From Oscillospiraceae bacterium (GTDB lineage: Bacteria; Bacillota; Clostridia; Oscillospirales; Acutalibacteraceae): a stretch of 64,000 bases of DNA. The first letter of the stretch is position 1; each line of letters opens with the position of its first letter. Position numbers and translations under genes: made by a program. Below the pieces are notes generated by a model. The model did no database searches. It was not told the DNA's origin and saw nothing but the letters and a program-made list of their open reading frames with translations. This document shows positions 2,150-49,225 of the stretch, piece after piece. The stretch covers positions 1-64,000 of the forward strand of contig CACYHA010000002.1 of the NCBI GenBank assembly GCA_902774035.1. The letters are read 5' to 3'.

Positions 2150-2183
2150 ATCAGTGATTTTCGGACAAATTGAGAGGTTGTAT

Positions 2184-4279: not shown

Positions 4280-4615
4280 ATGGCAAGAGGATATAGTCAC
4301 ATACAGAAATATGAAAAGGAAATCATAGAAAGAATAGAAAAAGGAGAAACACTTAGAGAAATCGGGGAAGCATATGGGTTCACGTATCAACAGGTGCGAA
4401 ATTTTAAGACGCGATATAATGAGAAGAAACGAAAGATAGCAGCAGGAATAGCAATAAGGAAGAAAGGGCGCCCGCCGAAGGATTATCAGGTCAGCGAAGA
4501 AGATAAGGTCGCACAGCTTCGCTACATCATCGACCGGAAGGACGCCAGGATCAAATCGTTGGAGATGGAGAATGAATTGATGCGGGATTTTCTCTCGCTC
4601 ACAGAAAGGAAGTGA
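4280..4615 (+). CDS. IS3-family transposase OrfA (helix-turn-helix subunit)
   Basis: 111 aa. Residues about 15-50 form a helix-turn-helix (ERIEKGETLREIGEAYGFTYQQVRNF), and a C-terminal heptad-like helix precedes ELMRDFLSLTERK. It binds the element ends and partners with OrfB. The ATG at 4280 is preceded by AGGAGG at the right distance; an upstream in-frame ATG at 4250 lacks a site. The stop codon overlaps the OrfB start as GTGA, so here OrfB appears to be made by translational coupling rather than needing only the -1 frameshift used by most IS3 elements. Confidence 0.85.
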   Translation: MARGYSHIQKYEKEIIERIEKGETLREIGEAYGFTYQQVRNFKTRYNEKKRKIAAGIAIRKKGRPPKDYQVSEEDKVAQLRYIIDRKDARIKSLEMENELMRDFLSLTERK

Positions 4616-5466
4616 GGACAAGCGTAAAATATCTGGTAATCTATCGCCACAAAGAGAAATATACGATCAGCGAAATGTGCAGATTTTTTGACGTATCAAG
4701 AAGTGGATATTACGATTACGTCAAGCGCATGGAGCAGCCGGATCGGGACCTGCCGTTGGCTGAGCAGATCCGCGCTTGTCAGTCAGAAGTCAAACAGACA
4801 TATGGCTATCGGAGAGTACAGATCTGGCTTGACCGGCAAGGTATCCACCGCAATCCGAAAACGGTGTTGCGTGTGATGCAGAAGTTCAATCTACTTTCCG
4901 TTGTCAGAAGAAAGAAATATCAGCATTACGGCAATTGTTTACACCGTTATCCCAATCTGCTGAACAGAGATTTCCATGCGGACAAACCAAATCAGAAGTG
5001 GGTGACGGATATTTCATACATCAAAACAGGTCAAGGATTTCTGTATCTTTCAATCATTCGTGACTTGTATGATAACAGCATTGTTGCATACAAAACCGGC
5101 ACGGAACAAAATATCCACCTTGTGTTGAGTACAATCAGAGACGCCCGGAAAAGAGAAAATGTCACTGCAGAGCTGCAACTCCACAGTGACCAAGGCTTTC
5201 AATACACCTCACAAGCATATTTCCGCCTGACTCAATCATACGGCATTACGCCGTCAATGTCAAGACGTGGAAATCCATATGACAATGCTTTAGCAGAAAA
5301 TTTCTTTTCAATTCTGAAAACAGAGTGTATCTACCGGGCGCGGCCGCGCACCTATGAGGAGGCGCGCCTCCTCATAGGTGAATACATCCACTTCTACAAC
5401 TACCAGCGTATTCAACTCAAAACAAAACTGACACCGATGGAATACCGATGCCAGTTCGTTGCTTAA
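4612..5466 (+). CDS. IS3-family transposase OrfB (DDE integrase)
   Basis: 284 aa, full length. An HTH_21-like N-terminal region (residues 1-90, including YGYRRVQIWL) is followed by the rve integrase core. The DDE triad is visible: WVTDISY (first Asp, about residue 129), LHSDQGFQYTS (second Asp, about 194) and NALAENFFSILKTE (Glu, about 229). It starts with GTG at 4612, overlapping the OrfA stop by four bases. The gene is intact and should be functional. Confidence 0.9.
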   Translation: MRTSVKYLVIYRHKEKYTISEMCRFFDVSRSGYYDYVKRMEQPDRDLPLAEQIRACQSEVKQTYGYRRVQIWLDRQGIHRNPKTVLRVMQKFNLLSVVRRKKYQHYGNCLHRYPNLLNRDFHADKPNQKWVTDISYIKTGQGFLYLSIIRDLYDNSIVAYKTGTEQNIHLVLSTIRDARKRENVTAELQLHSDQGFQYTSQAYFRLTQSYGITPSMSRRGNPYDNALAENFFSILKTECIYRARPRTYEEARLLIGEYIHFYNYQRIQLKTKLTPMEYRCQFVA

Positions 5467-5672
5467 TCTATTATTCTATTTCTACCATTTAGGCTGTTTT
5501 TGTACTGTCCGTACAAAATGGAGCAGTTCACGTTTCTTTTTTTTGAAAAAAACAAAAAATGTTCCGTCCCAACGCCTGTGCTTTTAAAAAACGAGGTATC
5601 ATCGTTCTGTCGGCAGAAAAACGAAAGCAAAAGAAAGCCAAACACCATGGAGCAAAAATTAGTCGAATGCAG

Positions 5673-5701
5673 TTGCTTTTTGAAGAATCTTCCTATATAA
5701 T
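5673..5701 (+). promoter_or_regulatory. Promoter of accessory operon A
   Basis: TTGCTT at 5673-5678, 17-base spacer, TATAAT at 5696-5701. It lies 35 bases before the first start codon and outside the IS end, so the operon does not depend on IS transcription. Confidence 0.6.
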
Positions 5702-5735
5702 TATTTTCAAAGACGATTCAAAAGGAGCATGCGTA

Positions 5736-7925
5736 ATGGCGATGTCGAACATGAATTATTCCGATCTACTGAAATCCGTGCGGGATGAGCTGGGTAATGA
5801 ATTCAAACCTTTCCGTTCGGCGGAGGAGTATCGGTTTTTACGCGAACGCCTGATGGCGAGACTCGGCGGTCTGAAAGAGGCGAACCACAACAACAGCGAA
5901 ACCCAGATCTACAGCGACCCGAAGCTTCGCTCTTTCTTTGCAAAACTCAGACGTCTGCTTGCGACTGCTTTGCCCGAAAAAGAAAATGAACTGCCGCTTC
6001 TTCCGGAGATCATCGAGAAAAAGGCGCAGTTTCATGCGCTGCTCCGGGCGTTTGATGCGGTTGCTGCGCATTTGAAACCCCAAGCGGAGATCGATGCCTC
6101 CTTTATGAATGCGCTGAGCTGCCGTTGCGCCGCATATAAGAGTTCCGAGGATTACATTCGCCGACTGGTCATTCGGCGGCTGGCGCAGATCAGCCCCGAG
6201 TTCGTCTGCCAGAAGAACAGCGCGGGGGAATGGGAAACCGACGCTTCCGGCAATCGGATCCTGCGCAGGGAGATCCTGCAAAAGGACGCAGCAAATCGGG
6301 ACGTGGTTACCACCAGACTTTTGATCCTGAAGCAGCTTATCAAACAATTCCACTGGTGCGAGGGGGTCGAGCACGAGGGCGACAAACACGGCGACGGTTA
6401 TCGCTGCGAACGGCTGAAAACGCTTTGCGAAACCGGATTTGGCGGAAACTGGGAGCGCATGACATTGGAAATGCGTGATGACGCCGAGGTGTCGGTGTTC
6501 CATGAACTGAAGCTCAAAAAGAAGCTGAACCGGGAACACAAGTTGGTCAAGGATCAGACGGCGGCGGCAAACAATCTGGCGCTGGTGCTGATCGCAAAGG
6601 ATTTTGCATCTGGCTTTTTCGGCAGTAAGGCCTCCACAAGAGAAGGGCTGTATGTGTTCGCCCTTGCCTTTGAAATGACCTTTTCCCTTCCTGCAAAAGT
6701 ATCGGAGAAGGGGGACGCAGACTATGATACGGACATTCGGAAAAACTTGTTTTTCGATTTTTATACGGACAGTCTGACAAACACCTACAATCGGGACGCG
6801 CGGACAGAGCGCTATGTTTCCGGATACGGGATCAACTACAAGAACTTTGTAGAGATTTCCTATCTTTATGCTCTGCAGCAGAGGGAGGATGAACTGGAAG
6901 CCTTTGAACAAGCGCGGGAACTCCGGCGCACGACTCCGGCGCTGAGCCGGTTCATTGAGGCGCGCACGCTGATCAACGAATGCAAGGCGTCGAGTGAAGC
7001 CCAGGATGAAGAGGATGTGGATATCTCAAAGCTTCTGCGTACCAGCCATTTCGAAAGCTTCTTTTCCGGCTTCAAAAGCCTGCCGTACGAAGCTTTCAAA
7101 AAAGAGCTGCTGCGCGTTTACGCGATCCGTTCCGAGGATGCAAGCAAGGATCTGGATGTATTTGAAGGCAACATCACTGCGGGAGAGGTCTATTATGATT
7201 TGCTGAAGTGTCTGTCGACCGTCAATCGCCGGGAGCATCTGGTGGTTCGCGGATTCGGAGAGTATTATCCGTCAAAAGCAAAGGCAGTTAGGGCAAAGGA
7301 AGAAAACGAAGAAACAAAGAGCAGCCCTTTAACTGTGCCGCAGTTGCTCCGGCGGCTGGAAAACGCAGACGCGGAGATTTTTGATTCCGCCGGGAACGCC
7401 GTTCCGCCGGAAGGCAGAGACGTTACGATCCTGTATCGGCGATTCAAGGAACTGCTGGATAAAGAAGCAAAGCTTCGCAAACGGCTCACGGAGATCAACG
7501 CTCACACCCTGCGCACCGATCCGAAGGCGCTGGCCTTGCTGCTGAATCGGATCTGCAGCGATGAGGATTTGAAGCTTGACGAGCACGCGCTGGTCGTTGC
7601 CCGGTCTGATCTCATGATCATCGCGTGCGTCTACCTCTGCGTGGCTGCCGAAAAAAAGACGGTCGACGCTTTGGATCGGATTCTTCTGAGCTTTCAAAGC
7701 TTTTATAAATACATGCAAAACGAGGCAAGAATTCCCTGCAAAAACGTGAAGACCTTTTTCGGTCTCAACGACCTGCTGCTCGAATGCGGTTTTATGGAGG
7801 TCCATCACAAAAACCTGTTCGACATGATGCTGCTTTATTTTACCTATCAGAGGCTGGTCACAAAACGAAATGTAAAAAAATATACGGCAGACAGCGGTTC
7901 CGCCGCGGAATGTCCCGAAGAATAA
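5736..7925 (+). CDS. Uncharacterised 729-aa protein, first gene of accessory operon A
   Basis: I do not recognise this protein. It is soluble (no signal peptide or membrane segment), rich in charged helical stretches, with no visible Walker, zinc or protease motif. An acidic stretch (EAQDEEDVDISKLL) sits around residue 415-430. The ATG at 5736 follows AAAGGAG; the frame is open upstream to 5559 but has no site there. It is followed after 99 bases by a PP2C phosphatase and then a kinase fusion, in the same direction, so it may be their substrate, scaffold or effector. That role is inference from position only. Confidence 0.7.
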   Translation: MAMSNMNYSDLLKSVRDELGNEFKPFRSAEEYRFLRERLMARLGGLKEANHNNSETQIYSDPKLRSFFAKLRRLLATALPEKENELPLLPEIIEKKAQFHALLRAFDAVAAHLKPQAEIDASFMNALSCRCAAYKSSEDYIRRLVIRRLAQISPEFVCQKNSAGEWETDASGNRILRREILQKDAANRDVVTTRLLILKQLIKQFHWCEGVEHEGDKHGDGYRCERLKTLCETGFGGNWERMTLEMRDDAEVSVFHELKLKKKLNREHKLVKDQTAAANNLALVLIAKDFASGFFGSKASTREGLYVFALAFEMTFSLPAKVSEKGDADYDTDIRKNLFFDFYTDSLTNTYNRDARTERYVSGYGINYKNFVEISYLYALQQREDELEAFEQARELRRTTPALSRFIEARTLINECKASSEAQDEEDVDISKLLRTSHFESFFSGFKSLPYEAFKKELLRVYAIRSEDASKDLDVFEGNITAGEVYYDLLKCLSTVNRREHLVVRGFGEYYPSKAKAVRAKEENEETKSSPLTVPQLLRRLENADAEIFDSAGNAVPPEGRDVTILYRRFKELLDKEAKLRKRLTEINAHTLRTDPKALALLLNRICSDEDLKLDEHALVVARSDLMIIACVYLCVAAEKKTVDALDRILLSFQSFYKYMQNEARIPCKNVKTFFGLNDLLLECGFMEVHHKNLFDMMLLYFTYQRLVTKRNVKKYTADSGSAAECPEE

Positions 7926-8024
7926 CCGATGATCTCTCTTGAATGCGCAAAGGATCTCCGCCGGGAAAGGGTCAGCGGTAGCCTGCGGCGGACACATCGA
8001 CTGCCAAAAGGAGGAGATTGTTTG

Positions 8025-8708
8025 ATGCATACGCAAGTAACCAGGTATTCCAAAATCGGTGAGTTCCACAAGCAAAAGCACTTGGAAAACCAGGATTTTA
8101 TCTATGAAAAAGAAACCGAGTGCGCTGTCTTTTATGCGGTCGCGGACGGCGTGTCCGCCTGCGCCAACAGCAGCGAAGGTGCAAGGATCGCCTGTGAGAT
8201 CAGCGCAAAAGTAATTTTGGACGATGTAGATTATTATTTTGATCTGAAACGGGAAAAAGCTATCCATCTGGTGATTTCAAATATCCGAAAAGCAATTGAA
8301 AAGGCCGCCGCAAGCGCCGGGGCTGCGCCGCTCTCGTTCGCGAGCACGCTCTGTTTTCTTTGTATCCATAAAAAAGCAGGGAGGATCATGACGTTCGTTC
8401 TGGGTGACAGCAGAATCTACGGCATACGAAGCGGTACGATCATTCAAAAAAATCCTGTTCGGGAATACAGAGAAAATGTCACATGCACCACGATGACGGC
8501 GTTTGCGCAGGCGGATGCTGCATTTGCGGTGAACTGCCTGGACAAAAACGAAGCATGGATGCTCTGCACGGACGGCTGCTGGAAAGAATTGTTTTTTCTT
8601 GACGATAACAAACAGATTTCGATGCGGGAAATGCGTCTGGATCGAATCGCCGGCTATCTGGAACGGCGAACGATCGGTGATGACTGCACGTTTTTGACTG
8701 TTGCATGA
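8025..8708 (+). CDS. PP2C-family serine/threonine phosphatase
   Basis: 227 aa, about the size of a minimal PPM/PP2C domain. Motifs in order: ENQD near residue 22, AVADGVSACANS (about 38-49; metal-binding Asp in DGV), LGDSRIYG (about 126-133), CTDGCW (about 183-188) and GDDCTFL at the end (DDxT motif). It should remove phosphate from Ser/Thr using Mn2+ or Mg2+. AAAGGAGG stands 10 bases before the ATG at 8025; the longer frame from 7929 has no site. It lies 27 bases before the kinase gene, the classical kinase-phosphatase pairing, and probably reverses that kinase's action. Confidence 0.88.
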   Translation: MHTQVTRYSKIGEFHKQKHLENQDFIYEKETECAVFYAVADGVSACANSSEGARIACEISAKVILDDVDYYFDLKREKAIHLVISNIRKAIEKAAASAGAAPLSFASTLCFLCIHKKAGRIMTFVLGDSRIYGIRSGTIIQKNPVREYRENVTCTTMTAFAQADAAFAVNCLDKNEAWMLCTDGCWKELFFLDDNKQISMREMRLDRIAGYLERRTIGDDCTFLTVA

Positions 8709-8735
8709 GGCCGTTTGGCCGGAAGGTGGATGAAT

Positions 8736-11700
8736 ATGAAGGGACCTCGGGATACAAGAGAATTTCTGCAAAGCGGGAGCGTGTTATATCTGCGTCCGTA
8801 CCTTCCGCAGCTTTTTGATTCGGAAAACAGCTTCGGCGGCCCCGTGTCCGAGACGGCAGAGGTTTTTTCCATCGTCGGGCAGGAGGGCTGCGGCAGCTCC
8901 GCGATCTGTTATGAGGCCGAAATCATTGCGGAAAACGGAACGCGCCGCCGCGGAAAGCTGAAGGAGTTTTATCCGGTGGATTCGGACGACGCGGGCTTGG
9001 AGATGCATCTGGTGCGCACGGATTCGGTGCGTGATGAGAATAAAAATCAGATATATTCAAAGTTTGGGACATTCCACAATTTTTTCCAGTTGAAGCGGAT
9101 CTATGAAAACTCTTATGCGATCATTGAAAAGAAGCGGAACGACAGAAGTTATTTTGCAAATGATCTGAACAAGTACATTCCAAAGTATTCCTTTTATTGC
9201 GGCATACCGTCTCAACCTGTAAACGACGAGTTGGACGGGGAGACCGCGGCGGAGAACTATACCTTTTATGTCTGGGTGGAAAACGAATCCGGAATCCAGG
9301 AGTTTGATGCGTACCTTGCCGGCCTGTGCCGTGAAATGCAGGAAAACCGCACAAAAAACATCGGCCGCACCAACCGGATCCACGATCTTGCGTTCGTTTT
9401 GAACTGCATTCTGGAGCTTGCCAAGTGTATGGATATCCTGCACAGGTTCGGTCTCTACCATTTGGATCTCAATCCGCGCAATTTCGGCGTGGGCCTGTAT
9501 AACGACAGGATCGACCAGGACAACACGACGATCAAGCTCTATGATACGAACTCCCTGCTTTCCGACAGGATCCGGGAGCAGGTTCTGCTCTCCTCCGGTA
9601 CGCCGTATTTCAGAAGCCCTGAGGTGATTCGCAACGACGCGGAGGCCTGCGGTATTCAGTCCGACATCTATTCTCTCGGCGCCATTCTGTTTTATGCTCT
9701 GGTGATCCGGGAAAAAGACGGCGCCTACCGAAACATCCATTTTTGCGAGGGCACGCAGGAATGCAGCAGAGAGGCCTATGACAACCTTGCGGTCGATTTT
9801 GTGAATTCCGAGTTGCTGCAGTCCTCCGACGACACAAAGCAGACGCTGATTTTTGAACATCTGCTCTCGATTCTGAAAAAATCTCTGAATCGGTTTTATG
9901 AGGAAGAGGATCGCTACACGACCGTCGGCGATCTGGCGGAGGATCTGCGGCAGGCGATTGAGCAGACGGGACTGGATTCCTGGAAAAGAAGCATTGAGGA
10001 ACATTCCGGCTATCACGCACAGACGATCCTTGAAAACAAGGAGACCTTTTATGACAGAGAGATCGGCGCCGCCGGTGCGATCCAGAAGCTTTTGTTTCAG
10101 GAGCCGCTGTATCAATACGGCGCTCCGTCGGAAGACGGGGTGCAAAACTGTGACATTCTGGTGATCGGCTGCGGCACCTATGCTTCCGAGTTTATCGACT
10201 ACGCGCTGGAGCTTTCGCAGGTGAAGGGCTGCCGACTGCATGTGACGGTCGTCACCAAAGAGTGTGAACGGAAAAAAGAGACCTATCTTTCCATCCGGAA
10301 AGCGCTGCCGCTGTTTTTTGATATTGACGGTGTTCCTGCGTCAAAATGTCCGGCGGGAGATTCATACGGAACTTTGAATTTCCGGGAGATCCGTCTGCAG
10401 AAGGGAAAAAGCAGATCAAACGCGGCGGCGCTCAGAGCAATGGCAGACCGAAAGTATTCCTACGTGTTCATTGCGTTGAACGACGACGTTTTAAATCTTG
10501 AGATCGCCTCTGCCTGCGGCGGAATTGCTCAGAAAAACGCCCTGATCGCGTTTGTACAGTATCAGACTTGTGATGTCAGCGCATTTCCCCCGCGGCTGAA
10601 GCCGGTCTTTGTGAATGAAACCCTGCAGGATATCCCGGAGTACAGATTCCTGCTGCAGATGGCTTTCAATATCCATCTGACATGGGATAAGGATTATATC
10701 AATGACCTGGAAGGCGCCGAGAGCGAGTTCCGGAAACCCTATAATTTCAACAGCTCGATGGAAAACGCTCTGAGTATCGTCTACAAGCTGCACAGTGTGG
10801 GCATCGACTTGGATTTCAACCGCCCGGAGACGGCTTCATCGGCCTTTTCCCAAATCACGGATCAGGAGACGATCCGTGCGCTGATCTGCTATGAGCACCG
10901 GCGCTGGGTCGTGGAAAAGATCACGTCTTCCTGGCAGCCGATGGAAGACCTTTCTCCGTTGACAACCGACACAAAGGATCGTGACCGGCGGCTGCACCCG
11001 TGCATTCTTACCAGCACGGAGAGCCGTGCGCTGAACGATCCGCAATGGACGGCCGACGACCGGGCGAGATGGGACGATCCGAACGCGGATCTGTCGGAGC
11101 TTGACCCGCTGGATGCGCTGAGTATCCGCTTCCACCGCCACTGGAAGACGGTCCTGGACGGGATCCGGTCGCAAAAAGGAGAAAGCGCCGTCAACCGGAA
11201 GATGGATGACCTGCAGGGTCGTTTGGAGAACGACGAAAAGCGAGGGATTCTGTGCGATTCCCTGCGGCAGATGATCAATCAGTTGATCTATCAGGACAGT
11301 TATAACACCGGTGCTGTTGCAAAATATCACCATCTATTCAATCAACTTAACAGCGCACTGAAAAACGCCGACCTTTCCGAAGCAGCGGAGCTGCTCTCTG
11401 AGATCGGAGAGGAGATGACGCCGGTTCTTGAATACAGACAATACACCGATTGGAAGAAAAAGGACGAAAACCTGATCCGCAATATGCCCTTTGTTCTGAC
11501 TTATCACACAGGGATCCATCTATGCATTCCCTTTTTCTTTGAGGCCGGTGCAGAGCAAAACACATCTCGTTTGTTTTCCAATGTGGCGTCTGTGCTGATG
11601 GTGAACCCGAAAACCGTCACCTACATTGTGGACGGAGAGCGCGCGGCTTCCAACGAACAAGGGCTGCTGAGCGGACTGCGCTACGTTGTGAATATTCTTG

Positions 11701-13193
11701 AAAAGCACGGGCTGCAAACGGCGCTCAATATCAAGATCCTCAGGGATGAGCGCTATAAGGTTTCCATGGAGCTGAAAACGGCTCTCGGCCGGATCGGCAG
11801 AGTGCAGAGCGTGGACACCCTGCCCTATCAGCAATGGCTGCAGACAAACGCATTGCGCCAGTTCCTGACGCAGAAAAGCAGCGGCGATTTTACCGCCATT
11901 GAAGTCAATGACACGAACATCAGCGGTTGTTTGCAGAGCGCGAATTATACTTCGGATCCGCAAACGGATGTCCCTGTCGCGCCAAAGCCGCTGGTGCCCG
12001 CCTACGGCTTTGATTCGGTCACCCGCAAGTTTTTCACAACGGACGGTTGCGCTTTTCTGCAGTATATCGACAACGCGCCGGTTCTCTTTTCGGAGGATCT
12101 TTATGACGCGAAGGGAAAAATGGTGCAGGATTCCAGACCGGAGCTGATGCGCTCCTATCAGCTTGCGTGGTCTCTTTATACCGGCGAGAGTCCGCTTCTG
12201 ACACAGCATGACCGTGCGGAATGCAGTGCCGCCTGGAAGAAGCTGTGCGGCAGCATTTCAAATTATATTGCGCATCATTGCAAGCTGGCAGACATACACT
12301 ACAGGGAAGAGCGCGCCGAAGTGTCTGGGGAGCCGGTCAGATACATTGTTCCGGCCTTTTGTCAGACATTTTTGGATCGCTTCCTCAGGCAGCTCAAGCA
12401 TTCCCTTTACGGCTTTTTTGAAAGTCACGAGTGGAAGTGGCTTTCGTCGCGAACGGTCTGTTTGGAGATCGCCGCGCCCTCGAACAGTCTGCAAAACGCT
12501 TTGGAAACCCTGCTTTCAGATCCGATCCGGCTTTCACAGAACAGCTTGCTGGAGATTCTCCGGACGGCGGACGGGTTCCAGGTGGTCTATAAGTCTCTGC
12601 GCATCTCCGATTTGGTTCTTCCCGAGGATTGCGCCGTGCTGTGCCGGGAAATGTTGGAAATCCTGCAGAGCAAGGGCTATATCCGCGGGTTCAGGATGCG
12701 CGAGCCCGCTGCAGAGGGAGGGCCGGTTTCCTTTGTCTTCGCCTGTGAGCACCTGGTTCATCTTCTGTCTGATGAGAGCTATTTATTCCGGTTGAACGCC
12801 TATTATGAGGCGCTGCGCTCCGGCTATTTCGACGATGTCAGCATCGGCGTGAAGATCGTTTGGAACGACGAGGGCCTGAACAACGAAGTCGGCGTCGTTC
12901 TGACAAGAGGCTTCCAGACCATTACGCTTGACTGCAGAACAAGCCCCTTGATCGAACAGGAAAACTACTATCGTCTGTATCCTCTGTCAAAGATCTTCGG
13001 CATCAACACGATACCGGTACTGCTTGTGGATCTCGGCGGCGCTGCGTTGACGCCGGCGAACCGAATGGAGATCCGCCGTGGCGAGGAACTCGGCATAAAG
13101 ACGATCTGCTCCACGGAGGATCTTGCACGCACATTGAAAGATTTGTTTGACATGCAGGAAGCAGCCCAACGTTTGAAAAAGAAAATGCTGTGA
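8736..13193 (+). CDS. Giant fusion: serine/threonine kinase, Rossmann (TrkA-N-like) domain, RyR domain, degenerate DUF1887-like C-terminus
   Basis: 1485 aa, cytoplasmic. Residues about 45-410 are a protein kinase: glycine loop VGQEGCGSSAICYE, Lys in GKLKEF, catalytic loop HLDLNPRN (about 242-249), a DTN in place of DFG, and SGTPYFRSPEV then SDIYSLG. Residues about 470-620 begin CDILVIGCGTYASEFI, a nucleotide-binding Rossmann start as in TrkA-N/RCK domains. Around 710-760, YEHRRWVVEK...DRRLHPC matches a RyR-type segment. The last about 120 residues (NEVGVVLTRG...LDCRT...LYPLSKIFG) resemble the DUF1887 nuclease at 44.3 kb but with D-to-G and K-to-R changes. ATG 8736 is chosen over TTG 8715 and ATG 8730 because GGAAGG then sits about 10 bases away. 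Substrates unknown; the C-terminal call is tentative. Confidence 0.75.
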   Translation: MKGPRDTREFLQSGSVLYLRPYLPQLFDSENSFGGPVSETAEVFSIVGQEGCGSSAICYEAEIIAENGTRRRGKLKEFYPVDSDDAGLEMHLVRTDSVRDENKNQIYSKFGTFHNFFQLKRIYENSYAIIEKKRNDRSYFANDLNKYIPKYSFYCGIPSQPVNDELDGETAAENYTFYVWVENESGIQEFDAYLAGLCREMQENRTKNIGRTNRIHDLAFVLNCILELAKCMDILHRFGLYHLDLNPRNFGVGLYNDRIDQDNTTIKLYDTNSLLSDRIREQVLLSSGTPYFRSPEVIRNDAEACGIQSDIYSLGAILFYALVIREKDGAYRNIHFCEGTQECSREAYDNLAVDFVNSELLQSSDDTKQTLIFEHLLSILKKSLNRFYEEEDRYTTVGDLAEDLRQAIEQTGLDSWKRSIEEHSGYHAQTILENKETFYDREIGAAGAIQKLLFQEPLYQYGAPSEDGVQNCDILVIGCGTYASEFIDYALELSQVKGCRLHVTVVTKECERKKETYLSIRKALPLFFDIDGVPASKCPAGDSYGTLNFREIRLQKGKSRSNAAALRAMADRKYSYVFIALNDDVLNLEIASACGGIAQKNALIAFVQYQTCDVSAFPPRLKPVFVNETLQDIPEYRFLLQMAFNIHLTWDKDYINDLEGAESEFRKPYNFNSSMENALSIVYKLHSVGIDLDFNRPETASSAFSQITDQETIRALICYEHRRWVVEKITSSWQPMEDLSPLTTDTKDRDRRLHPCILTSTESRALNDPQWTADDRARWDDPNADLSELDPLDALSIRFHRHWKTVLDGIRSQKGESAVNRKMDDLQGRLENDEKRGILCDSLRQMINQLIYQDSYNTGAVAKYHHLFNQLNSALKNADLSEAAELLSEIGEEMTPVLEYRQYTDWKKKDENLIRNMPFVLTYHTGIHLCIPFFFEAGAEQNTSRLFSNVASVLMVNPKTVTYIVDGERAASNEQGLLSGLRYVVNILEKHGLQTALNIKILRDERYKVSMELKTALGRIGRVQSVDTLPYQQWLQTNALRQFLTQKSSGDFTAIEVNDTNISGCLQSANYTSDPQTDVPVAPKPLVPAYGFDSVTRKFFTTDGCAFLQYIDNAPVLFSEDLYDAKGKMVQDSRPELMRSYQLAWSLYTGESPLLTQHDRAECSAAWKKLCGSISNYIAHHCKLADIHYREERAEVSGEPVRYIVPAFCQTFLDRFLRQLKHSLYGFFESHEWKWLSSRTVCLEIAAPSNSLQNALETLLSDPIRLSQNSLLEILRTADGFQVVYKSLRISDLVLPEDCAVLCREMLEILQSKGYIRGFRMREPAAEGGPVSFVFACEHLVHLLSDESYLFRLNAYYEALRSGYFDDVSIGVKIVWNDEGLNNEVGVVLTRGFQTITLDCRTSPLIEQENYYRLYPLSKIFGINTIPVLLVDLGGAALTPANRMEIRRGEELGIKTICSTEDLARTLKDLFDMQEAAQRLKKKML

Positions 13194-13227
13194 TATATCA
13201 CTTCAGGGAAAGAAGGTGACAAACCGC

Positions 13228-13515
13228 ATGTATCAACCGAACCCGATCGACACATCAGACGTGATTCTCCCCGAAGATCTGGAAGCGCTGAGTGAAGAGC
13301 TTGCCCGGAACACCCATGAGGTCTGGGCTGCCGGCCGCGCATCGCAGGGGTGGACTTATGGTGATGTCAGAGATGACGCTGCAAAGAAAACGCCGTGTAT
13401 GGTTCCCTATGAGGAGCTTCCGGAATCCGAAAAAGACTATGACCGAAACACCGCAAAGGAAACGATCCGGCTTATTCTCAAGCTGGGATATATAATCAAA
13501 AAAGGAGAATCATAA
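13228..13515 (+). CDS. RyR-domain protein
   Basis: 95 aa consisting almost only of a RyR domain: YQPNPIDTSDVILPEDLEAL, then ELARNTHEVWAAGR, GWTYGDVRDD, MVPYEELPESEKDYDR and TAKETIRLILKLGY. This fold, first named in ryanodine receptors, occurs alone or fused in bacterial and phage genomes and is thought to bind small ligands; the ligand here is unknown. The ATG at 13228 follows AGGTGA by eight bases; a GTG at 13216 is the alternative. It is 34 bases after the kinase fusion, which carries a related RyR segment, so the two may form one sensing complex. Confidence 0.85.
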   Translation: MYQPNPIDTSDVILPEDLEALSEELARNTHEVWAAGRASQGWTYGDVRDDAAKKTPCMVPYEELPESEKDYDRNTAKETIRLILKLGYIIKKGES

Positions 13516-42647: not shown

Positions 42648-42734
42648 GCGGATGTGGCGGAATTGGCAGACGCGCTAGATTCAGGTTCTAGTGGTAGCAA
42701 TACTGTGTGGGTTCAAGTCCCGTCATCCGCACCA
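42648..42734 (+). tRNA. tRNA-Leu (anticodon CAG)
   Basis: 87 nt including an encoded CCA. The acceptor stem GCGGATG pairs with CATCCGC; the anticodon loop TTCAGGT in the stem CTAGA/TCTAG gives CAG; a long variable arm typical of class II tRNAs precedes GGGTTCAAGTCCC. It is followed at once by a terminator and then by accessory operon B. Confidence 0.95.
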
Positions 42735-42736
42735 GG

Positions 42737-42780
42737 TCGAGTGTTCATAAGGGATTTCACTTTATGAACACTCGATTTTT
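42737..42780 (+). terminator. Terminator of tRNA-Leu
   Basis: TCGAGTGTTCATAA (42737-42750) pairs perfectly with TTATGAACACTCGA (42762-42775), followed by TTTTT. Confidence 0.9.
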
Positions 42781-42785
42781 GTTCT

Positions 42786-43295
42786 ATGGTGAAGGGAATT
42801 TTGGTATGCTCCCGGCAGTCTCTTGAATACTCCTTTGAAAAAAGTGTTATTTGCAGGCCTCAGAACCAACCAACAAACACAATCAGAGAAAGGAGCATCA
42901 AAGCATGGATGCTTCTTTGCTTCAAGTCTTTTTCGGCGTATGTGTGCCGGAGAAGGCTTTTTGATTGTATCAAAAACAGCGTTATATATTTCTGATCCAG
43001 TATGGAATTTGATTTAATTGATTTGACAAAGAATTCGGAGATGATCGAACACAAAGAATTCGGAGATGATCGAAACCTGTCTTGATTTTCGCTGAAAGGA
43101 TATGATATAATAAATCAAAATAAATCAAATTGAGAAAAATCGCGAGCTGCAAGTAGCGCGTTTCGGTTATACTTTTCTGTCTGTATATCTGGAGGCCGCT
43201 TGCGATTTATTAAGGATAATCAAATTCCAATTGTGCGGATTTGATTCAATGGAATTCAAGGCGCGGACAAGATCAAGAAGCAGGAGACATTTAAA
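42786..43295 (+). other. Gene-poor stretch upstream of accessory operon B
   Basis: No solid gene. An RBS-led 19-codon frame (AAAGGAG, ATG 42905) is a weak candidate leader peptide. A 22-24-bp tandem duplication, AAAGAATTCGGAGATGATCGAA, occurs twice at about 43026-43070. A promoter sits at 43082-43111, and the 5' leader contains a stem AAATCGCGAGC (43137-43147) with GCTTGCGATTT (43198-43208). The region is AT-rich compared with the hyd operon. Confidence 0.5.
43082..43111 (+). promoter_or_regulatory. Promoter of accessory operon B
   Basis: TTGATT at 43082-43087, 18-base spacer, TATAAT at 43106-43111; leaves a leader of about 175 nt with an imperfect 11-bp stem. Confidence 0.55.
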
Positions 43296-44264
43296 ATGAC
43301 GAACGAAGAAAAAAACAAGGCAAAAATGGTTTTTGAATCGTTGTGTTCTTTGCTGGATGCCCACAAATGGCTGACGCGGAAGAACGAAGAGGAGCTCAGC
43401 GTTGATTGCGATGCGCAGGGAGAAGATCTTCCGATGGCGATTACCGTTAGAGTTGATGCGGAAATGCAGTTGATTCAGCTTGTTTCTCATCTTCCGTTCG
43501 TCGTTGCCGAAGAGCAGCGGCTTGAAGTTGCAATTGCGGTTGCCGTAATCAATAAAAAGCTGCCGGACGGAAACTTCGAATACGATTTTCACAATGGAAA
43601 CCTGTTCTTTCGAATGACCACCAGTTTTATCGAAAGCGAAGTCAGCAACGGGGTGTTTGCCTATTTGCTGATGGTTTCTTTCACTACGATCGAAAAATAT
43701 AACGATAAGTTCTTTATGCTCGGCAGGGGAGCAATCAGTCTGGAAGACTTTATCTCTGAAAGCTATTCTTCCGGCAAGGTTGAAAAAACAACCGTGGATA
43801 TAGAAAAACAAGTCCTTGCAAAGCGTGTTTTTGAGGATCTTTGTCTAGCGCTTGAAAGGAAGGGCTGGTCATATAAAACGCACGAGGAGATGCTTGTCGT
43901 TACATGCAGCGTTTCCGGAGCGGATATTCCGATGGGGCTTATTCTGATTGTCGACGCTGAACGCCAGTTGCTCAAGGTGTTGTCGCGCCTTCCGTTCACG
44001 GTTCCGGAAGATAAACGGATGGAGCTTGCGGTGGCAGCTTGTGTTGCGACATTTGGCCTTGCCGATGGAAACTTTGACTATGATGTTGCAAAGGGAACCA
44101 TTGACTTTCGTTTGACTGCCGTATTCGGAGAAAGCAAAATCGGCGAGGGATTGTTTACATATCTTGTTGAATTCTCAAGTTCTGTTGTTGACCGATACAA
44201 CGATAGATTTCTTGCACTTTGCAAGGGGCTGATCAGCATTGATGCTTTTATTCTCAAAGGATGA
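43296..44264 (+). CDS. Duplicated YbjN-like protein, first gene of accessory operon B
   Basis: 322 aa made of two homologous halves (about 1-155 and 168-322). Each begins KxVFExLCxxLxxxxW and shares motifs such as LPMAITVRVDAEMQLIQLVS / IPMGLILIVDAERQLLKVLS, then LPDGNFEYDFHNGNLFFRMT / LADGNFDYDVAKGTIDFRLT, and a YND near the end. The pattern resembles the YbjN/type III chaperone-like fold, small proteins that bind partner proteins. GGAG lies 11 bases before the ATG. It is 46 bases from the CARF-nuclease gene. It may be an adaptor for the protease or a chaperone; inference. Confidence 0.7.
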   Translation: MTNEEKNKAKMVFESLCSLLDAHKWLTRKNEEELSVDCDAQGEDLPMAITVRVDAEMQLIQLVSHLPFVVAEEQRLEVAIAVAVINKKLPDGNFEYDFHNGNLFFRMTTSFIESEVSNGVFAYLLMVSFTTIEKYNDKFFMLGRGAISLEDFISESYSSGKVEKTTVDIEKQVLAKRVFEDLCLALERKGWSYKTHEEMLVVTCSVSGADIPMGLILIVDAERQLLKVLSRLPFTVPEDKRMELAVAACVATFGLADGNFDYDVAKGTIDFRLTAVFGESKIGEGLFTYLVEFSSSVVDRYNDRFLALCKGLISIDAFILKG

Positions 44265-44310
44265 ATCGAAACAGCGGGAAGCATTGGAAACCTGATAAGG
44301 AGTGTGCGCC

Positions 44311-45615
44311 ATGACACTGGTTGAATTTTTTGATAAGGATGCAGCCGAAAATATTTGTTCCAGCCTTACAAAGGTGCCTGAACGCGTCATTCTGATCGGA
44401 GACAAAAAAATTGCGGCAAAACATGCCAAACGATATGAAGCTGTATTACGAGCAAGGGGCTTTGCGGTGGAGTTCCTTTTTCGCCCTGTAAATAAGAATC
44501 ATCTCCCAACGATTGTTGACGCACTGTTGGAAATCATTTCAACGTATGATGATTGTGTTTTTGATCTGACAGGAGGAGAGGATCTTTATCTTGTCGCAAT
44601 GGGCGTTGTTTTTGAGAAGCAGAGAACACAGGAAAAACAGGAAAAACAGAAAAAACAGAATATACAGATGCATCGGTTTAATATCAGCAACAATACGATT
44701 ACCGATGTTGACCAGGACGGACAAACCATTCTGACAGAAGAAGCGCCCAATCTCACTGTTGAAGAAATAATTCGGATCTATGGCGGAAAGATCGTCTGTG
44801 AGGGCGAAGCGAGAAACGCCACAAAGCATTGGGATATGAACGAAGACTTCAAACAAGACATTCAAGATATGTGGGATGTTTGCAAATACGATCCGGGACT
44901 TTGGAATGCGCAGATCTCTTTTCTTGCAGCCGTTGTCAGATTGGCCGGTGAAACGGATGATCTGAAGATTACAGTTCCGATGAGTTGTCTGAAGGACATG
45001 GTTTGCAGTAAAGACGGAGTTTTCATGCCGAACAGTCGGGTCATGAAAGAGCTTTCTCTTTACGGCTTGTTGGAGTCCTATGCCTGCAATGATGAGGTTT
45101 TTTCCGTTACATTTAAAAACCTGCAAGTAAAACGCTGTCTGACCGTTGAAGGGCAGGCGCTTGAGATGATAGTTTTTCTTACGGCGCTTGAGGCAGCGGA
45201 GGAAGACGGCACGAAGATCTACAATGATGTGATGAACGGCGTTTGCATTGACTGGGACGGTGAGCTCGGGACGGAACAAAACAGCGTTGATACCGAAAAT
45301 GAAATCGATGTTATTATGATGCATGGAATGGTTCCGGTTTTCGTGTCCTGTAAAAACGGCGCGGTTGATAAAAACGAACTGTACAAGTTAAATGCAGTTG
45401 CAACACGGTTCGGGGGCAAATATGTTAAAAAGGTTCTGATAGCGACTTCTCTTGATAACTCGGAGTCCGCAGATTATTTTCGGCAACGAGCGATCGATAT
45501 GAACATTCACCTCGTTGAAGGAGAAAAGAAAAACAATGTTTTTACTCCTTTTGCCGAGTTAAATAAGGATGCAATCGATCGGGTGATTCGCTCCCTTTGG
45601 TCAACTTCGAATTGA
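44311..45615 (+). CDS. Card1/Can2-like CARF-nuclease, DUF1887 family
   Basis: 434 aa. N-terminal CARF domain: VPERVILIGDKKIAAKHAK and the ligand-loop VFDLTGGEDLYLVAMG (about 72-87), typical of cyclic-oligoadenylate sensors. A winged-helix middle (about 195-270) follows. The C-terminal PD-(D/E)XK-type domain has TENEIDVIMMHG (about 327-338), PVFVSCKNG (about 340-348) and LNAVATRFGGKYVKKVLIAT. The ExK position reads S-C-K. Known relatives Card1 and Can2 cut DNA/RNA when bound to cyclic tetra-adenylate from type III CRISPR; no CRISPR array or Cas10 is seen here. ATG 44311 follows AAGGAG; GTG 44302 overlaps that site. Confidence 0.85.
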   Translation: MTLVEFFDKDAAENICSSLTKVPERVILIGDKKIAAKHAKRYEAVLRARGFAVEFLFRPVNKNHLPTIVDALLEIISTYDDCVFDLTGGEDLYLVAMGVVFEKQRTQEKQEKQKKQNIQMHRFNISNNTITDVDQDGQTILTEEAPNLTVEEIIRIYGGKIVCEGEARNATKHWDMNEDFKQDIQDMWDVCKYDPGLWNAQISFLAAVVRLAGETDDLKITVPMSCLKDMVCSKDGVFMPNSRVMKELSLYGLLESYACNDEVFSVTFKNLQVKRCLTVEGQALEMIVFLTALEAAEEDGTKIYNDVMNGVCIDWDGELGTEQNSVDTENEIDVIMMHGMVPVFVSCKNGAVDKNELYKLNAVATRFGGKYVKKVLIATSLDNSESADYFRQRAIDMNIHLVEGEKKNNVFTPFAELNKDAIDRVIRSLWSTSN

Positions 45616-45730
45616 ACAGCGCGAAGGTTATACCTGATATTTCGAAAAGCGCTGTAAGAGCTGCGTTTTTCGGTGAAAACTACGGTTATCATATAGAGCC
45701 TACAAGAATCAAAAAGAAAGGATGACGGAT

Positions 45731-48700
45731 ATGAAAAACAGTACACTGCTTGACAAGATCTTGGATTATGCAAAAACATTTGACAAGAAAAGCAAGGCAA
45801 CCCTTACGGCGGAGCGTTATCTGGTGTCGGTGATTGAGGTTGTGACAGGGGATACCGCAATCGAGATCAGTGGGGAGGAAAAGAACAAACTGCTCACGCT
45901 TTTACAGAAAAATCTTTCTTCAGATGGCCTGAGCATTGAAAAGGCGAAGGAGATCCTGCTTGCACACATCGACCAAAAAGAGGAATCCTCCTATCTTGAG
46001 GGAATCTATATTCAGCAATGCTCCTTTAAAGCGAAAAAGATAGCAAAGGATCGGGGGAAGTCCGAACTGTCGCCGGATATTTTGCTTGAATGTATATTCA
46101 ATGAACCGAATGATTTTATTAAAAACAGTGTTTTTCACGGTTTGAAAACCGAAAAACAAGATGATACGGCGCCTGAATTTCTCGGAGAGATCGATAAAAG
46201 TCTGAGCGATCTTTTAGAGGAAGAAGGAAAAGAAGAGGAAGCCGACAAAGAAGAGAAAAAAGAGACGGAAGAGAAAGAAGAGAAAGAAGAGCCCGAGCCT
46301 CCTGCAGATCCCAGACTTTCCGTTGAAAACCTGACAAAAAGAGTGCGCGAGATCCGAGATCAGCTCAGTGAAGTTGTTTTCGAGCAGGAAAACGCAATCG
46401 GTGTTTTCACTTCCGGATTGTTTCAGTCTGAATTGATTGCTGCGACGGATAAAGCAAGAACTCGCCCAGCCGGAACGTTCCTGTTTGCAGGCCCGCCGGG
46501 TGTTGGCAAAACCTTTTTGGTGAACAATATTGTTAAGGTTCTCGGCATGCAGAACTGCTTCAAGGTTTTTGATATGAGCGAATATGCCGACCCGCAATCT
46601 TATCTGGATCTGATCGGATTCGGCGATAACTATAAGAGCCCGCAGGAAGGTTTGTTGACCGGGTTTGTCAAAAAGCACCCAAAGTGTATTTTGCTCTTTG
46701 ACGAGATCGAAAAAGCACATGTAACGACGATCCATTTGTTTTTGCAGATCCTTGATGAAGGGGTGCTGACAGACAGCAAACGACAGGAACGAGTATCGTT
46801 TAAGGACGCATTGATTTTCTTTACAACGAATGCAGGAAAAGAATTGTACAATGCTCCAGATGCATATGACTTTTCGGGTACGCCGAGAAAAGTCATTTTA
46901 AAAGCGCTGCAAAAAGACGTCAATCCGGCTACTCAGCAACCGTTCTTCCCGGCGGCGCTCTGCTCTCGTTTTGCATCCGGAAATGTCGTAATGTTCAATC
47001 AGATATCGGCAAGCGGTTTGCGTAAAATTGCTGAAACTGAGATTCAAAAACAGGCAGACCATTTTACAAATGAATACGGCATAGAGGTTCGTCTGGATCC
47101 GGAGGTGTTTACTGCGCTGATGTTTGCGGAGGGCGGCAATGCCGACGCCAGATCTCTGCGAGGACGCGCCGAACGATTCTTTGACGATGAGATTTTTGAA
47201 CTGTTTCGGTTTTTGGCGTCCGAAGAGCATCCGGGGAATATTTCCGAACTGGAGACGATTCACTTTAACGTTGAATCTCCTTCAGACCCGGAGGTCTCTT
47301 CTCTGTTTGGAAACGGTGAAGAGCACCATGTTTTGATGTTTGCGGAAGACGGGGTTATCAAAAAATATGAAGCATGCTGTTCCGGCATCCATATTTGCAG
47401 TGCGCAGGACCTTGCCTCGGTAAAGCAGCAGCTCAGCAGCAATTCATTCGGCTTTGTGGTTATTGATTTGCTTTTTGGAACGCCGGGTGTGAAAAAGTTT
47501 TTGAACATTGAAGACGTCAGCTCTACTGCGCGTGACGTGTTTCGATATATTCGTGAAAAGCATGCAGATCTTCCGGTCTTTATTCTTCAGCACAACGAAA
47601 GCCTTTTGAGCAAGGAGGAGCAGAAGTCGCTGCTGAAGGAAGGTGCGCGGGGCTTTATCATGCCGGGAGAGGAGGAGTCTGTCTTTTCTGACGAGATTTG
47701 CCGCATCTGCACAAGGCTCTATCAGCAGGCAAGCATGAAGAAACTTGCCAGTTCGAATCGACTGATCAGCTATGAAACCGGACAGAATGTCAGCGACGAC
47801 GGGAAAAGCGCTGAAATCACTTTGTTTGATTTTGCGCTGTCTACGGCCGTCGAAGCGGAGGATACACGAAATGTGATGAGCAATGTTTCTAAGCCCAATG
47901 TGAAATTCGACGAAATCATCGGTGCTGAGAACGCAAAAGAAGAATTGCAATTCTTTATTGATTATTTGAAAGATCCGAAACAGTTTGTTGAAAGCGGTTT
48001 AAGAACACCGCGCGGAGTATTGCTTTATGGTCCGCCGGGTACCGGAAAAACGATGCTTGCGAAGGCGGTCGCAAGTGAGGCCGGTGTAACATTCATCTCT
48101 GCGGAAGGAAATCAGTTCATCAAAAAATACATCGGTGAGGGAAAAGACGATCTGCACGACTTGTTTGCTGTTGCTCGCAAGTATGCACCTGCGATTATCT
48201 TTATTGATGAGTTTGAAGCAATTGCCAAGGAGCGCAGAGGTGGAGAACACTCCATGTCGAACGGTGAAGATGTATTGACTGCGCTGCTGACCGAAATGGA
48301 CGGTTTTCATACCGATATCGCCCATCCGGTATTTGTACTGGCGGCGACAAATTTTGAAATCACGCCCGGCACCGGGAAATCGCTCGACCAGGCTTTGCTT
48401 CGAAGGTTTGACAGCAAGATCTGCGTCGACCTACCCAACAAGCAGGAACGCATTCGGTTTATTCGGAAAAAAAGCTCCGGCAGCAAGGCCTTTGAAATCA
48501 GCGACGCGGAAATTGAAAGCATCGCTCTGCGGTCAACCGGTATGAGTCTGGCCGATCTTGATTCTGTTATGGAGCTTTCCCTTCGAACGGCAATCCGAAA
48601 CACCGACAAAAAAGTTACGGATCAGGTTTTGGATGAAGCGTTTGAAACTTTCATCGGCGGCGAAGAGAAAGGTTGGGACAAGGAACAGTTGATGCGCACC

Positions 48701-49225
48701 GCGCGGCACGAAGCGGGTCACGCCTTCCTTTGCTGGCACAGCGGTGAAACGCCAACCTACGTTACTGTTGTAGCGAGGGGGGATCACGGGGGCTACATGC
48801 TTCATGATACGGACGAAGGCAAGAAGATCTTCACGAAAGAAGAACTACTTTCAAGAATTCGGGTCGCACTTGGAGGACGTGCCGCCGAACTCGTCTATTA
48901 CGGCGAAAAAGACGGTGTTTCGACCGGCGCGAGCGGAGACCTCGCTTCCGCAACCGGATTGGCAAGACAAATCATCTGCACCTATGGTATGGACGAAAGT
49001 TTCGGCCTTGCTGTGATTGATTCGCAGGCGGCCAGAGAGGGAGAGCTCTCTCTTGAGGTGCGGAAAGCGGTCAACCAGATTCTGGAGAAAGAGATGAATC
49101 ATGCCATAAAAATCATTGAAGAGAACAGGCTGTTGATTGATGCGCTTGTGAGTCGACTGATGTCCGATAACCATCTGAACGGCGATGAGATCCAACACAT
49201 TTTCGAGTCGACTTCAAAGGGTTAA
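45731..49225 (+). CDS. Hybrid AAA+ protease: Clp-N-like, ClpB-D2-like, receiver-like, FtsH AAA and M41 peptidase
   Basis: 1164 aa, without a transmembrane segment, unlike FtsH. Residues 1-about 135 resemble a Clp N-domain (LTAERYLVSVIEV...LSPDILLECIF). An acidic linker (about 158-190) follows. Residues about 195-500 form a ClpB D2-type AAA: GPPGVGKT (about 254), ILLFDEIEKAH (about 319), sensor FFTTNAG. About 530-665 resembles a receiver fold (HHVLMFAEDG...FVVIDLLFG...VFILQHNES...GARGFIMPG). The FtsH AAA has GPPGTGKT (about 766), IIFIDEFEAI (about 822) and the SRH LLRRFD; M41 has HEAGH (about 993) and the third zinc ligand in GASGDLASAT (about 1065). ATG 45731 is favoured over 45722 by AAAGG spacing. 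Confidence 0.88.
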   Translation: MKNSTLLDKILDYAKTFDKKSKATLTAERYLVSVIEVVTGDTAIEISGEEKNKLLTLLQKNLSSDGLSIEKAKEILLAHIDQKEESSYLEGIYIQQCSFKAKKIAKDRGKSELSPDILLECIFNEPNDFIKNSVFHGLKTEKQDDTAPEFLGEIDKSLSDLLEEEGKEEEADKEEKKETEEKEEKEEPEPPADPRLSVENLTKRVREIRDQLSEVVFEQENAIGVFTSGLFQSELIAATDKARTRPAGTFLFAGPPGVGKTFLVNNIVKVLGMQNCFKVFDMSEYADPQSYLDLIGFGDNYKSPQEGLLTGFVKKHPKCILLFDEIEKAHVTTIHLFLQILDEGVLTDSKRQERVSFKDALIFFTTNAGKELYNAPDAYDFSGTPRKVILKALQKDVNPATQQPFFPAALCSRFASGNVVMFNQISASGLRKIAETEIQKQADHFTNEYGIEVRLDPEVFTALMFAEGGNADARSLRGRAERFFDDEIFELFRFLASEEHPGNISELETIHFNVESPSDPEVSSLFGNGEEHHVLMFAEDGVIKKYEACCSGIHICSAQDLASVKQQLSSNSFGFVVIDLLFGTPGVKKFLNIEDVSSTARDVFRYIREKHADLPVFILQHNESLLSKEEQKSLLKEGARGFIMPGEEESVFSDEICRICTRLYQQASMKKLASSNRLISYETGQNVSDDGKSAEITLFDFALSTAVEAEDTRNVMSNVSKPNVKFDEIIGAENAKEELQFFIDYLKDPKQFVESGLRTPRGVLLYGPPGTGKTMLAKAVASEAGVTFISAEGNQFIKKYIGEGKDDLHDLFAVARKYAPAIIFIDEFEAIAKERRGGEHSMSNGEDVLTALLTEMDGFHTDIAHPVFVLAATNFEITPGTGKSLDQALLRRFDSKICVDLPNKQERIRFIRKKSSGSKAFEISDAEIESIALRSTGMSLADLDSVMELSLRTAIRNTDKKVTDQVLDEAFETFIGGEEKGWDKEQLMRTARHEAGHAFLCWHSGETPTYVTVVARGDHGGYMLHDTDEGKKIFTKEELLSRIRVALGGRAAELVYYGEKDGVSTGASGDLASATGLARQIICTYGMDESFGLAVIDSQAAREGELSLEVRKAVNQILEKEMNHAIKIIEENRLLIDALVSRLMSDNHLNGDEIQHIFESTSKG

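Follow-up and report, generated by a model that had tools for sequence, protein, structure and literature searches.

Nucleases of the Can2/Card1 kind place an N-terminal CARF domain before a C-terminal PD-(D/E)xK domain; mutating the acidic pair E276/D278 inactivates Can2, and the orphan CARF protein VC1899 has weak ribonuclease activity that is not regulated by cyclic tetra-adenylate (cA4), the ligand read by Can2 (PMC7969007; this and the other sources are cited for the parts that were accessible). Multi-component CARF/SAVED systems, in which CARF proteins occur with further proteins including HD/RelA-type enzymes, lie near type III loci of clustered regularly interspaced short palindromic repeats (CRISPR; PMC10910872), and in the type III CRISPR-associated CalpL-CalpT-CalpS system the SAVED-Lon protease CalpL cleaves an anti-sigma factor upon ligand binding, a precedent for messenger-gated proteolysis (PMC11229360). 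YbjN-family proteins have been described as peptide-binding chaperones and, with TY-chaperones, occur in predicted ADP-ribose conflict systems (PMC9503650). Here, we describe a three-gene cassette encoding a duplicated YbjN-like protein, a CARF nuclease and a Clp-receiver-FtsH fusion protease, found in a 64,000-nucleotide stretch (the window) of contig CACYHA010000002.1 from a draft Oscillospiraceae genome (G000, 85% complete; G and L numbers are our handles for genomes and loci). We assign a probability of about 0.45 to the reading that the protease and YbjN form an adaptor-fed proteolysis core, to which CARF and TrkA/RyR-like proteins are joined as interchangeable modules of a CRISPR-independent stress or defence system.

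The three open reading frames lie on the same strand: the YbjN gene ends 37 bp before the annotated start of the CARF gene, which is followed after 106 bp by the protease gene. An earlier interpretation made from the DNA letters (the sequence-only reading) had described a compact same-strand run preceded by a tRNA, which the open reading frames and a tRNA-Leu(CAG) confirm, and its naming of a duplicated YbjN protein, a DUF1887 CARF nuclease and a soluble Clp-FtsH hybrid agrees with Pfam, PADLOC, profile and hydropathy results. The features of the cassette are:

43296..44264, + strand: duplicated YbjN-like protein, 322 amino acids, with two YbjN domains at residues ~1-160 and ~161-322 (open reading frame, Pfam, domain of a relative)
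44302..45615, + strand: CARF-PD-(D/E)xK protein of the DUF1887 (Can2/VC1899) kind, with an N-terminal CARF and a C-terminal nuclease domain carrying NEID and SCK motifs (open reading frame, PADLOC, profiles)
45722..49225, + strand: soluble Clp-receiver-FtsH fusion protease, 1167 amino acids (open reading frame, Pfam, hydropathy, alignment)
45722..46141, + strand: helical N-domain of the protease, residues 1-140, Clp_N-like by predicted fold (Foldseek best E 0.03, weak)
46463..46951, + strand: first AAA+ module, ClpA/B D2 type (Pfam AAA_2, residues 248-410), with Walker A K263, Walker B D327/E328, and R416 just beyond
47324..47761, + strand: receiver-like domain between the two AAA+ modules, residues ~535-680, with D582 (profile, predicted fold)
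48017..48430, + strand: second AAA+ module, FtsH type (Pfam AAA, residues 766-903), with Walker A K776, Walker B E830 and R895
48680..49201, + strand: M41 metalloprotease domain, with HEAGH at 996-1000 and third zinc ligand D1073 (Pfam, alignment)

The Pfam matches to AAA_2, AAA and Peptidase_M41 (the last at residues 987-1160) are each over cut-off, and a charged linker joins the N-domain to the D2-type module. The fusion shares with FtsH an FtsH-type AAA+ module followed by M41 with HEAGH and the third-ligand aspartate, but it lacks a membrane anchor and carries in addition a Clp-type AAA+ ring, a receiver-like domain and a putative Clp_N-like domain. With ClpA, ClpB and ClpC it shares the Clp/Hsp100 D2-type AAA+ module and perhaps, by a weak fold match, a Clp_N-like domain; it differs in that no D1 was found and in having an FtsH-type second ring and protease, with all parts in a single chain. 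The FtsH equivalog TIGR01241 scored 334 bits against a cut-off of 600, with the M41 active site (HExxH plus aspartate) present, and a ClpA model matched residues 198-467, far under its whole-protein cut-off. Hydropathy detected no transmembrane segment in the window protease, and a hydrophobic stretch was seen in just two of 28 aligned rows, G225 (doubtful N-terminus) and L094 (borderline), rather than an anchor of the FtsH N-terminal type. The alignment and tree comprise these 28 rows, with the partial L091 left out and long branches flagged. All 28 conserve the Walker A lysine, the Walker B glutamate and the arginine of each AAA+ module, together with HExxH and the third-ligand aspartate of M41.

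Between the two rings, the receiver fold is recovered and a functional receiver pocket is not. The phospho-acceptor aspartate is kept in 28/28 proteases, the Thr/Ser site is a serine in one and the lysine site a lysine in one, and the acid pair is degenerate. A fold model (best predicted local distance difference test score, pLDDT, 76) matches receivers at E 8.8e-7 with a target TM-score (template modelling score) of up to 0.79, and a sequence profile gave 18 PDB matches at E up to 5, nearly all to response-regulator proteins and weak (0.04-1.2). Judged from these residues, the motor and protease parts look active, since their key positions are invariant, and the receiver looks degenerate, since its pocket is lost. 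For the N-domain, the titles of 10 of the 11 best PDB matches to the best model (pLDDT 82) name Clp/Hsp100 N-domains. The receiver-like fold was modelled from 4 sequences and the N-domain from 3, and in each case the mean confidence of the four remaining models was lower.

Pfam YbjN (PF10722) matches the first gene product once, at residues 14-139 with 29.5 bits (cut-off 22), and the YbjN domain of a relative (L030) matches both halves of it; the duplication is therefore real. In a sample of 300 genomes of the family, YbjN homologues were found in 5 of 10 protease genomes and 19 of 290 others (p 4e-4); this first scan used one query, its 24/300 genomes are a lower bound, and the YbjN genes of clade B were detected only later, by Pfam. 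The Clp_N-like domain of ClpA and ClpC takes adaptors such as ClpS and MecA. A role of YbjN as adaptor of the protease, which the sequence-only reading had suggested, is plausible because the N-domain is weakly Clp_N-like, YbjN is the most often recurring partner, and its relatives have been published as peptide-binding chaperones (PMC9503650). The likeness to the conflict systems of that source lies in YbjN-related chaperone-like proteins; the window YbjN adjoins a Clp-FtsH protease, whereas in the accessible part of that source the YbjN relatives go with ARG-centred genes.

The CARF gene encodes 437 amino acids counted from its GTG, and an alternative ATG at 44311 is the likely start because a Shine-Dalgarno-like AAGGAG precedes it and the N-termini of relatives agree. 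PADLOC assigned the product to CARF4/CARF_PDDEXK (4.6e-33), a profile of 12 relatives matched VC1899 (1XMX, 6e-10) and Can2 (7BDV, 4e-8) in the PDB, and the Pfam Card1_endonuc score of 22.1 is below the cut-off of 26.4. With Can2/Card1 and VC1899 the protein shares the two-domain layout, the NE-x-D residues and the final lysine: the Can2 pair E276/D278 is retained as NEID (E334/D336) and is invariant in the 12 rows of CARF profile A3, built from 12 of 21 aligned CARF proteins. It differs from Can2 in the E-x-K motif (TsuCan2 E302/K304), which reads S-C-K with the lysine kept in 21/21 aligned rows, window included, a count that covers the aligned proteins and leaves some CARF search hits aside. 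Nuclease activity is uncertain because serine replaces the glutamate, and the change may be tolerated since it occurs in all 21 rows, including a copy near Cas10.

A second difference concerns the ligand. Of the Can2 residues that contact cA4, the four named in PMC7969007 (S19, T42, K99 and Y118) align with D, D, D and R in the window protein by profile alignment, and two of the three aspartate replacements match those of VC1899. Cas10 (PF22335, one model) was undetected in all seven genomes with a CARF-protease pair, that is the window's own (85% complete) and G145, G064, G260, G290, G384 and G301 (71-98% complete). Across the genomes searched, Cas10 was over cut-off in 2/22 (G024, G289) and reached E 0.001 in 3/22, and a SMODS nucleotidyltransferase was found in 2/23 (G024, G145), the window's own genome showing neither. 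Given the replaced contacts and the failure to detect Cas10 in the genomes with the pair, a cA4-driven mechanism is unlikely, though the drafts are incomplete and another messenger is possible, and the cyclic-oligoadenylate activation proposed from the sequence is left in doubt. Inspection of the neighbourhood maps by eye turned up no CRISPR gene; Cas models and arrays were not searched there. At one CARF locus, L028 (G024), the CARF relative lies a few genes downstream of a Cas10 gene, apparently in a type III CRISPR locus.

The protease is an accessory gene of sporadic distribution. At the family level, 12/300 genomes matched and 10 of these carry long fusions, G135 and G284 having been dropped as short frames with stops; the order and class samples gave 13/394 and 3/391 genomes, the window's own included in all three counts. 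Public draft Clostridia genomes added at least four further loci, one of them partial (L091-L094, the only loci taken from a contig scan that worked on generic Clp motifs and undercounts). A canonical FtsH, mostly in reading frames of 607-743 amino acids, is also present in 19 of the 23 fusion genomes searched, so that housekeeping FtsH was rejected as the identity of the fusion, and the protease is not the conserved housekeeping locus that the sequence-only reading had named as a way it could fail. The four genomes with the fusion and no canonical FtsH (the window's own, G064, G240 and G602) are 71-85% complete, and the genus-mates of the window's genome (G003, G138, G224 and G289) all have canonical FtsH.

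Partners of the protease were counted in 29 loci, with L095 (two adjacent frames) and the long M41 frames G529 C15 and G970 C56 left out; L091, L273, L274, L275 and L277 are on short contigs, where absent partners mean little. A YbjN gene lies within 1.5 kb of the protease in 12/29 loci (one divergent), a CARF nuclease within 6 kb in 7/29 (at 0-107 bp in 5), a TrkA/RyR-like gene nearby in 8/29 and a sigma-like gene in 3/29. At least one of YbjN, CARF and TrkA/RyR is found within 6 kb in 23/29, and same-strand neighbours at 0-150 bp recur across several families of the order. The YbjN-protease pair can stand alone, as shown by nine loci in which YbjN lies within 1.5 kb and both other modules are missing. 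Seen from the nuclease, 6 of 20 fetched CARF loci carry a module within 6 kb. Mapping the CARF label onto the protease tree takes 6 changes, and well-supported branches force at least 5; CARF has thus been gained or lost repeatedly, as a swappable module. The sister of the window protease (G529, support 100/97) sits in a YbjN-YbjN-protease locus without CARF, and the comparison of these two loci fits an insertion of the CARF gene between YbjN and protease in the window lineage.

Within the family sample, 9 of the 10 genomes with the protease and 33 of the 290 without it have CARF homologues (Fisher 8e-8; 5e-7 without the window's own genome). In the nine genomes with both genes, the pair lies within 6 kb in 5, which under random placement has P about 3e-9, an assumption that islands break; the co-occurrence and adjacency P values are both too small, owing to shared ancestry and clustering in islands. 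The evidence supports the view that the CARF-protease pairing is no accident. Recurrent pairing, which the sequence-only reading had proposed to look for across genomes, thus holds, while a fixed three-gene cassette is not supported: in 22/29 protease loci, some on short contigs, no CARF gene was found within 6 kb, and most fetched CARF loci have none of the partner modules.

Under the favoured reading of a proteolysis core with exchangeable modules, the fusion protein would form a soluble two-ring hexamer that unfolds proteins and feeds them into an M41 zinc-protease chamber. YbjN proteins would catch substrates and dock them on the Clp_N-like N-domain. The CARF protein would act as a nuclease switched by a ligand and would have been added to this core as an exchangeable module, replaced or accompanied in relatives by the TrkA/RyR-like, usually membrane-bound protein. 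Both modules would probably answer a nucleotide-derived stress signal other than the cA4-Cas10 signal read by Can2, and proteolysis and nucleic-acid damage could be triggered, or reset, together.

Several observations weigh against this reading. Six of the 29 protease loci (G225, G240, G375, G524 at a contig end, G543 and G996) have none of the modules, and 14 of the 20 fetched CARF loci, several on short contigs, lack partner modules. The CARF label is no more clustered on the protease tree than shuffled labels (225/500 shuffles as low), and in 4/9 family genomes with both genes (G225, G289, G222, G240) CARF and protease are on different contigs. Within the proteins, the nuclease has serine at the glutamate position of the Can2-type ExK; the N-domain match is weak (best E 0.03), the other four of its five models having pLDDT 41-57; Pfam gives no Clp_N match in the fusion protease, and no PADLOC model spans it as a whole. 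A divergent clade (G222, G240 and others) has a different protein start, yet 4/6 of its members keep YbjN. The genomes used are incomplete drafts, the window's own at 85%.

A more specific form of the favoured reading, which we regard as possible and rather doubtful, makes the system a modular, CRISPR-independent immune or stress device in which the soluble ClpA/C-receiver-FtsH executor would be fed by YbjN, and CARF and TrkA/RyR sensor-effectors would read a nucleotide-derived messenger, CARF through a pocket lined with acidic residues at the Can2 cA4-contact positions. It is unlikely that the three genes are independently useful cargo gathered in the same type of island with no common mechanism. 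The low GC (guanine plus cytosine) content of the segment, the sporadic occurrence in 10/300, 13/394 and 3/391 sampled genomes, the scatter of the CARF label and the separation of the two genes in 4/9 genomes are what cargo would give; the recurrence of genes on one strand, 0-150 bp apart, in several families of this order, and an adjacency in 5/9 genomes well above random placement even if islands violate that model, argue for more than shared residence.

Also improbable is an arrangement in which the protease degrades, and so restrains, a toxic CARF nuclease or TrkA/RyR protein, with YbjN as tag reader and with stress or loss of ATP freeing the effector. Such a guard would explain why CARF and protease adjoin at 0-107 bp in 5/7 loci, why both exchanged modules look like harmful effectors and why the protease is an extra one, distinct from housekeeping FtsH; against it, the 14/20 CARF loci without modules indicate that the nuclease needs no adjoining guard, and YbjN-protease pairs occur with no neighbouring effector. 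Finally, despite the Can2/VC1899 homology, the one relative near a Cas10 gene (L028) and the sigma-like and Hx3Cx2C genes near the protease in G483 and G970 that are reminiscent of CalpL-CalpT-CalpS, it is very improbable that this is an ordinary type III CRISPR cassette in which Cas10-made cA4 activates a Can2-type nuclease and the protease is an ancillary effector like CalpL, as Cas10 (PF22335) is undetected in all 7 pair genomes, the four cA4 contacts are replaced, and no CRISPR gene was seen by eye in the maps.

The likeness to CalpL-CalpT-CalpS itself lies in a ligand-sensing protein linked to a protease and in relatives that carry sigma-like and Hx3Cx2C proteins; the window protease is an M41 zinc enzyme and not Lon, the sensor is a separate gene and a CARF nuclease rather than SAVED, and no CRISPR link was seen. 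No SAVED or Lon family appeared among the matches listed, and profiles found no sigma-like gene in the window cassette. Small Hx3Cx2C proteins, which may be anti-sigma factors, accompany sigma-like genes close to the protease in G483 and G970 and close to CARF in G270, and the sigma-like genes gave one weak Sigma70_r2 match (0.006). By analogy, they hint at a CalpL-like output in some relatives, and the window cassette is without them. The systems of PMC10910872 resemble the present loci in joining CARF to partners, with HD genes near CARF in two relatives here; they adjoin CRISPR loci, and neither a protease of FtsH type nor YbjN is mentioned as a partner in the accessible part of that source, where FtsH occurs solely in a legend that defines HflK.

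The TrkA/RyR-like proteins that alternate with CARF have a C-terminus matching ryanodine-receptor RyR repeats in the PDB (9.5e-9) and free-standing RyR proteins (hhalign probability 92%). Their TrkA_N match is under threshold, and the TrkA half of the name is by resemblance only. Hydrophobic N-terminal segments are present in 7/8 aligned copies and absent from one, and free-standing RyR-domain genes lie beside some copies (G315, G320). CARF and TrkA/RyR-like genes are also close together without the protease, at 91 bp in G225 and at 3.2 kb in G270. Three protease loci have TIR-like genes in their vicinity, recognised by PADLOC in G602 and only by eye in G107 and G320.

Single loci add further observations. 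L271 (G320) has TrkA/RyR-like genes on both sides of the Clp-FtsH gene, then a RyR-domain gene and then the TIR-like gene seen by eye. L027 (G270) places a CARF nuclease with a sigma-like gene, an Hx3Cx2C protein, a soluble TrkA/RyR-like protein, an HD-like protein, tandem YbjN and another AAA+ protein; no Clp-FtsH fusion was found on the 13.7 kb read, and this other AAA+ protein may substitute for it. Near the CARF gene in two genomes lie small HD-domain genes that belong to one cluster and presumably resemble (p)ppGpp hydrolases, at L060 12397-12825 (Pfam HD_4) and L027 2887-3315. At L094 (uncultured Christensenella), a few genes separate the divergent fusion protease from the gene of a large protein with a predicted defence function (PADLOC PDC-S37/Hhe).

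The window holds a second island at 2.1-13.9 kb, with the following genes:

2121-3185, + strand: TIR-domain protein (Pfam TIR_2 4.6e-10), very low GC (38%)
4612-5466: transposase gene with integrase core domain, after the TIR gene
5559-7925, + strand: 788-amino-acid protein, upstream of the PP2C and kinase genes
7929-8708: PP2C phosphatase gene, upstream of the gene for the 1492-amino-acid protein
8715-13193, + strand: 1492-amino-acid protein with a kinase domain, a middle resembling the TrkA/RyR protein and a C-terminus resembling the CARF-family nuclease half
13216-13515: RyR-domain gene, downstream of the gene for the 1492-amino-acid protein

The 788-amino-acid protein had no match in Pfam (E 0.01) or PADLOC (E 0.001). 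In the 1492-amino-acid protein, residues 452-699 resemble the TrkA/RyR protein (hhalign 97%), its RyR end merely hinted at, and the C-terminus is similar to the nuclease half of CARF-family proteins (97%); a CARF domain was not detected in this protein. The nuclease-like part is probably inactive because its catalytic D and K are replaced by G and R. As this one chain unites relatives of both modules that alternate beside the protease, it supports their belonging to one functional network.

The cassette stands out from its surroundings, with 44-48% GC over the three genes compared to 58-59% at 14-42 kb and 50-64 kb of the window. Two features lie upstream of it:

42648..42734, + strand: tRNA-Leu (CAG), adjoining the cassette
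43082..43111, + strand: candidate extended -10 promoter TTGATT-N18-TATAAT, with TG, upstream of the YbjN gene (consensus match only)

A terminator-like hairpin at 42734-42778 belongs to the tRNA-Leu, which is probably not part of the cassette. The promoter of its own that the sequence-only reading had given the cassette exists as a site but is no more than a candidate, since 15 similar sites occur in the region (7.7 +/- 3.2 in shuffles). Directly upstream of it, 43026-43074 is an exact tandem repeat of 24 bp with starts 25 bp apart. With regard to tRNA-targeted integration, no copy of the tRNA end was present among the 20 of 34 repeat families listed, and no integrase was spotted by eye among the cassette frames, for which no model search was made. 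In four congeners the counterpart of the flanking M20 peptidase gene has different neighbours, and the fetched stretch, which for G003 extends just 2.3 kb on that side, contains no tRNA; an empty integration site was thus not found. A prophage or phage-gene origin was rejected as far as tested: no fusion protease was among the 80 viral loci listed, no CARF relative was found in the viral contigs and phage records searched, and one plasmid match was partial (34% of the query).

A search of open-licence PMC titles and abstract openings found no description of a CARF protein with an M41 protease or of this fusion, and FtsH, Clp and YbjN do not occur in the accessible main text of the 2025 CRISPR classification (PMC12669027). 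All of the domains are known; within the reach of these searches, novelty lies in the fusion, in the pairing and in the seeming independence from CRISPR. To our knowledge, no ligand or partner has been established for orphan CARF proteins such as VC1899. Should CARF nucleases of this kind prove to cooperate with a protease and a chaperone-like adaptor in a setting outside CRISPR, these partners would give a handle on what orphan CARF proteins sense. The soluble fusion of a Clp ring, a receiver-like domain and an FtsH ring would be a new AAA+ protease design, and a test case for the regulation of proteolysis by a second motor ring and a degenerate receiver.

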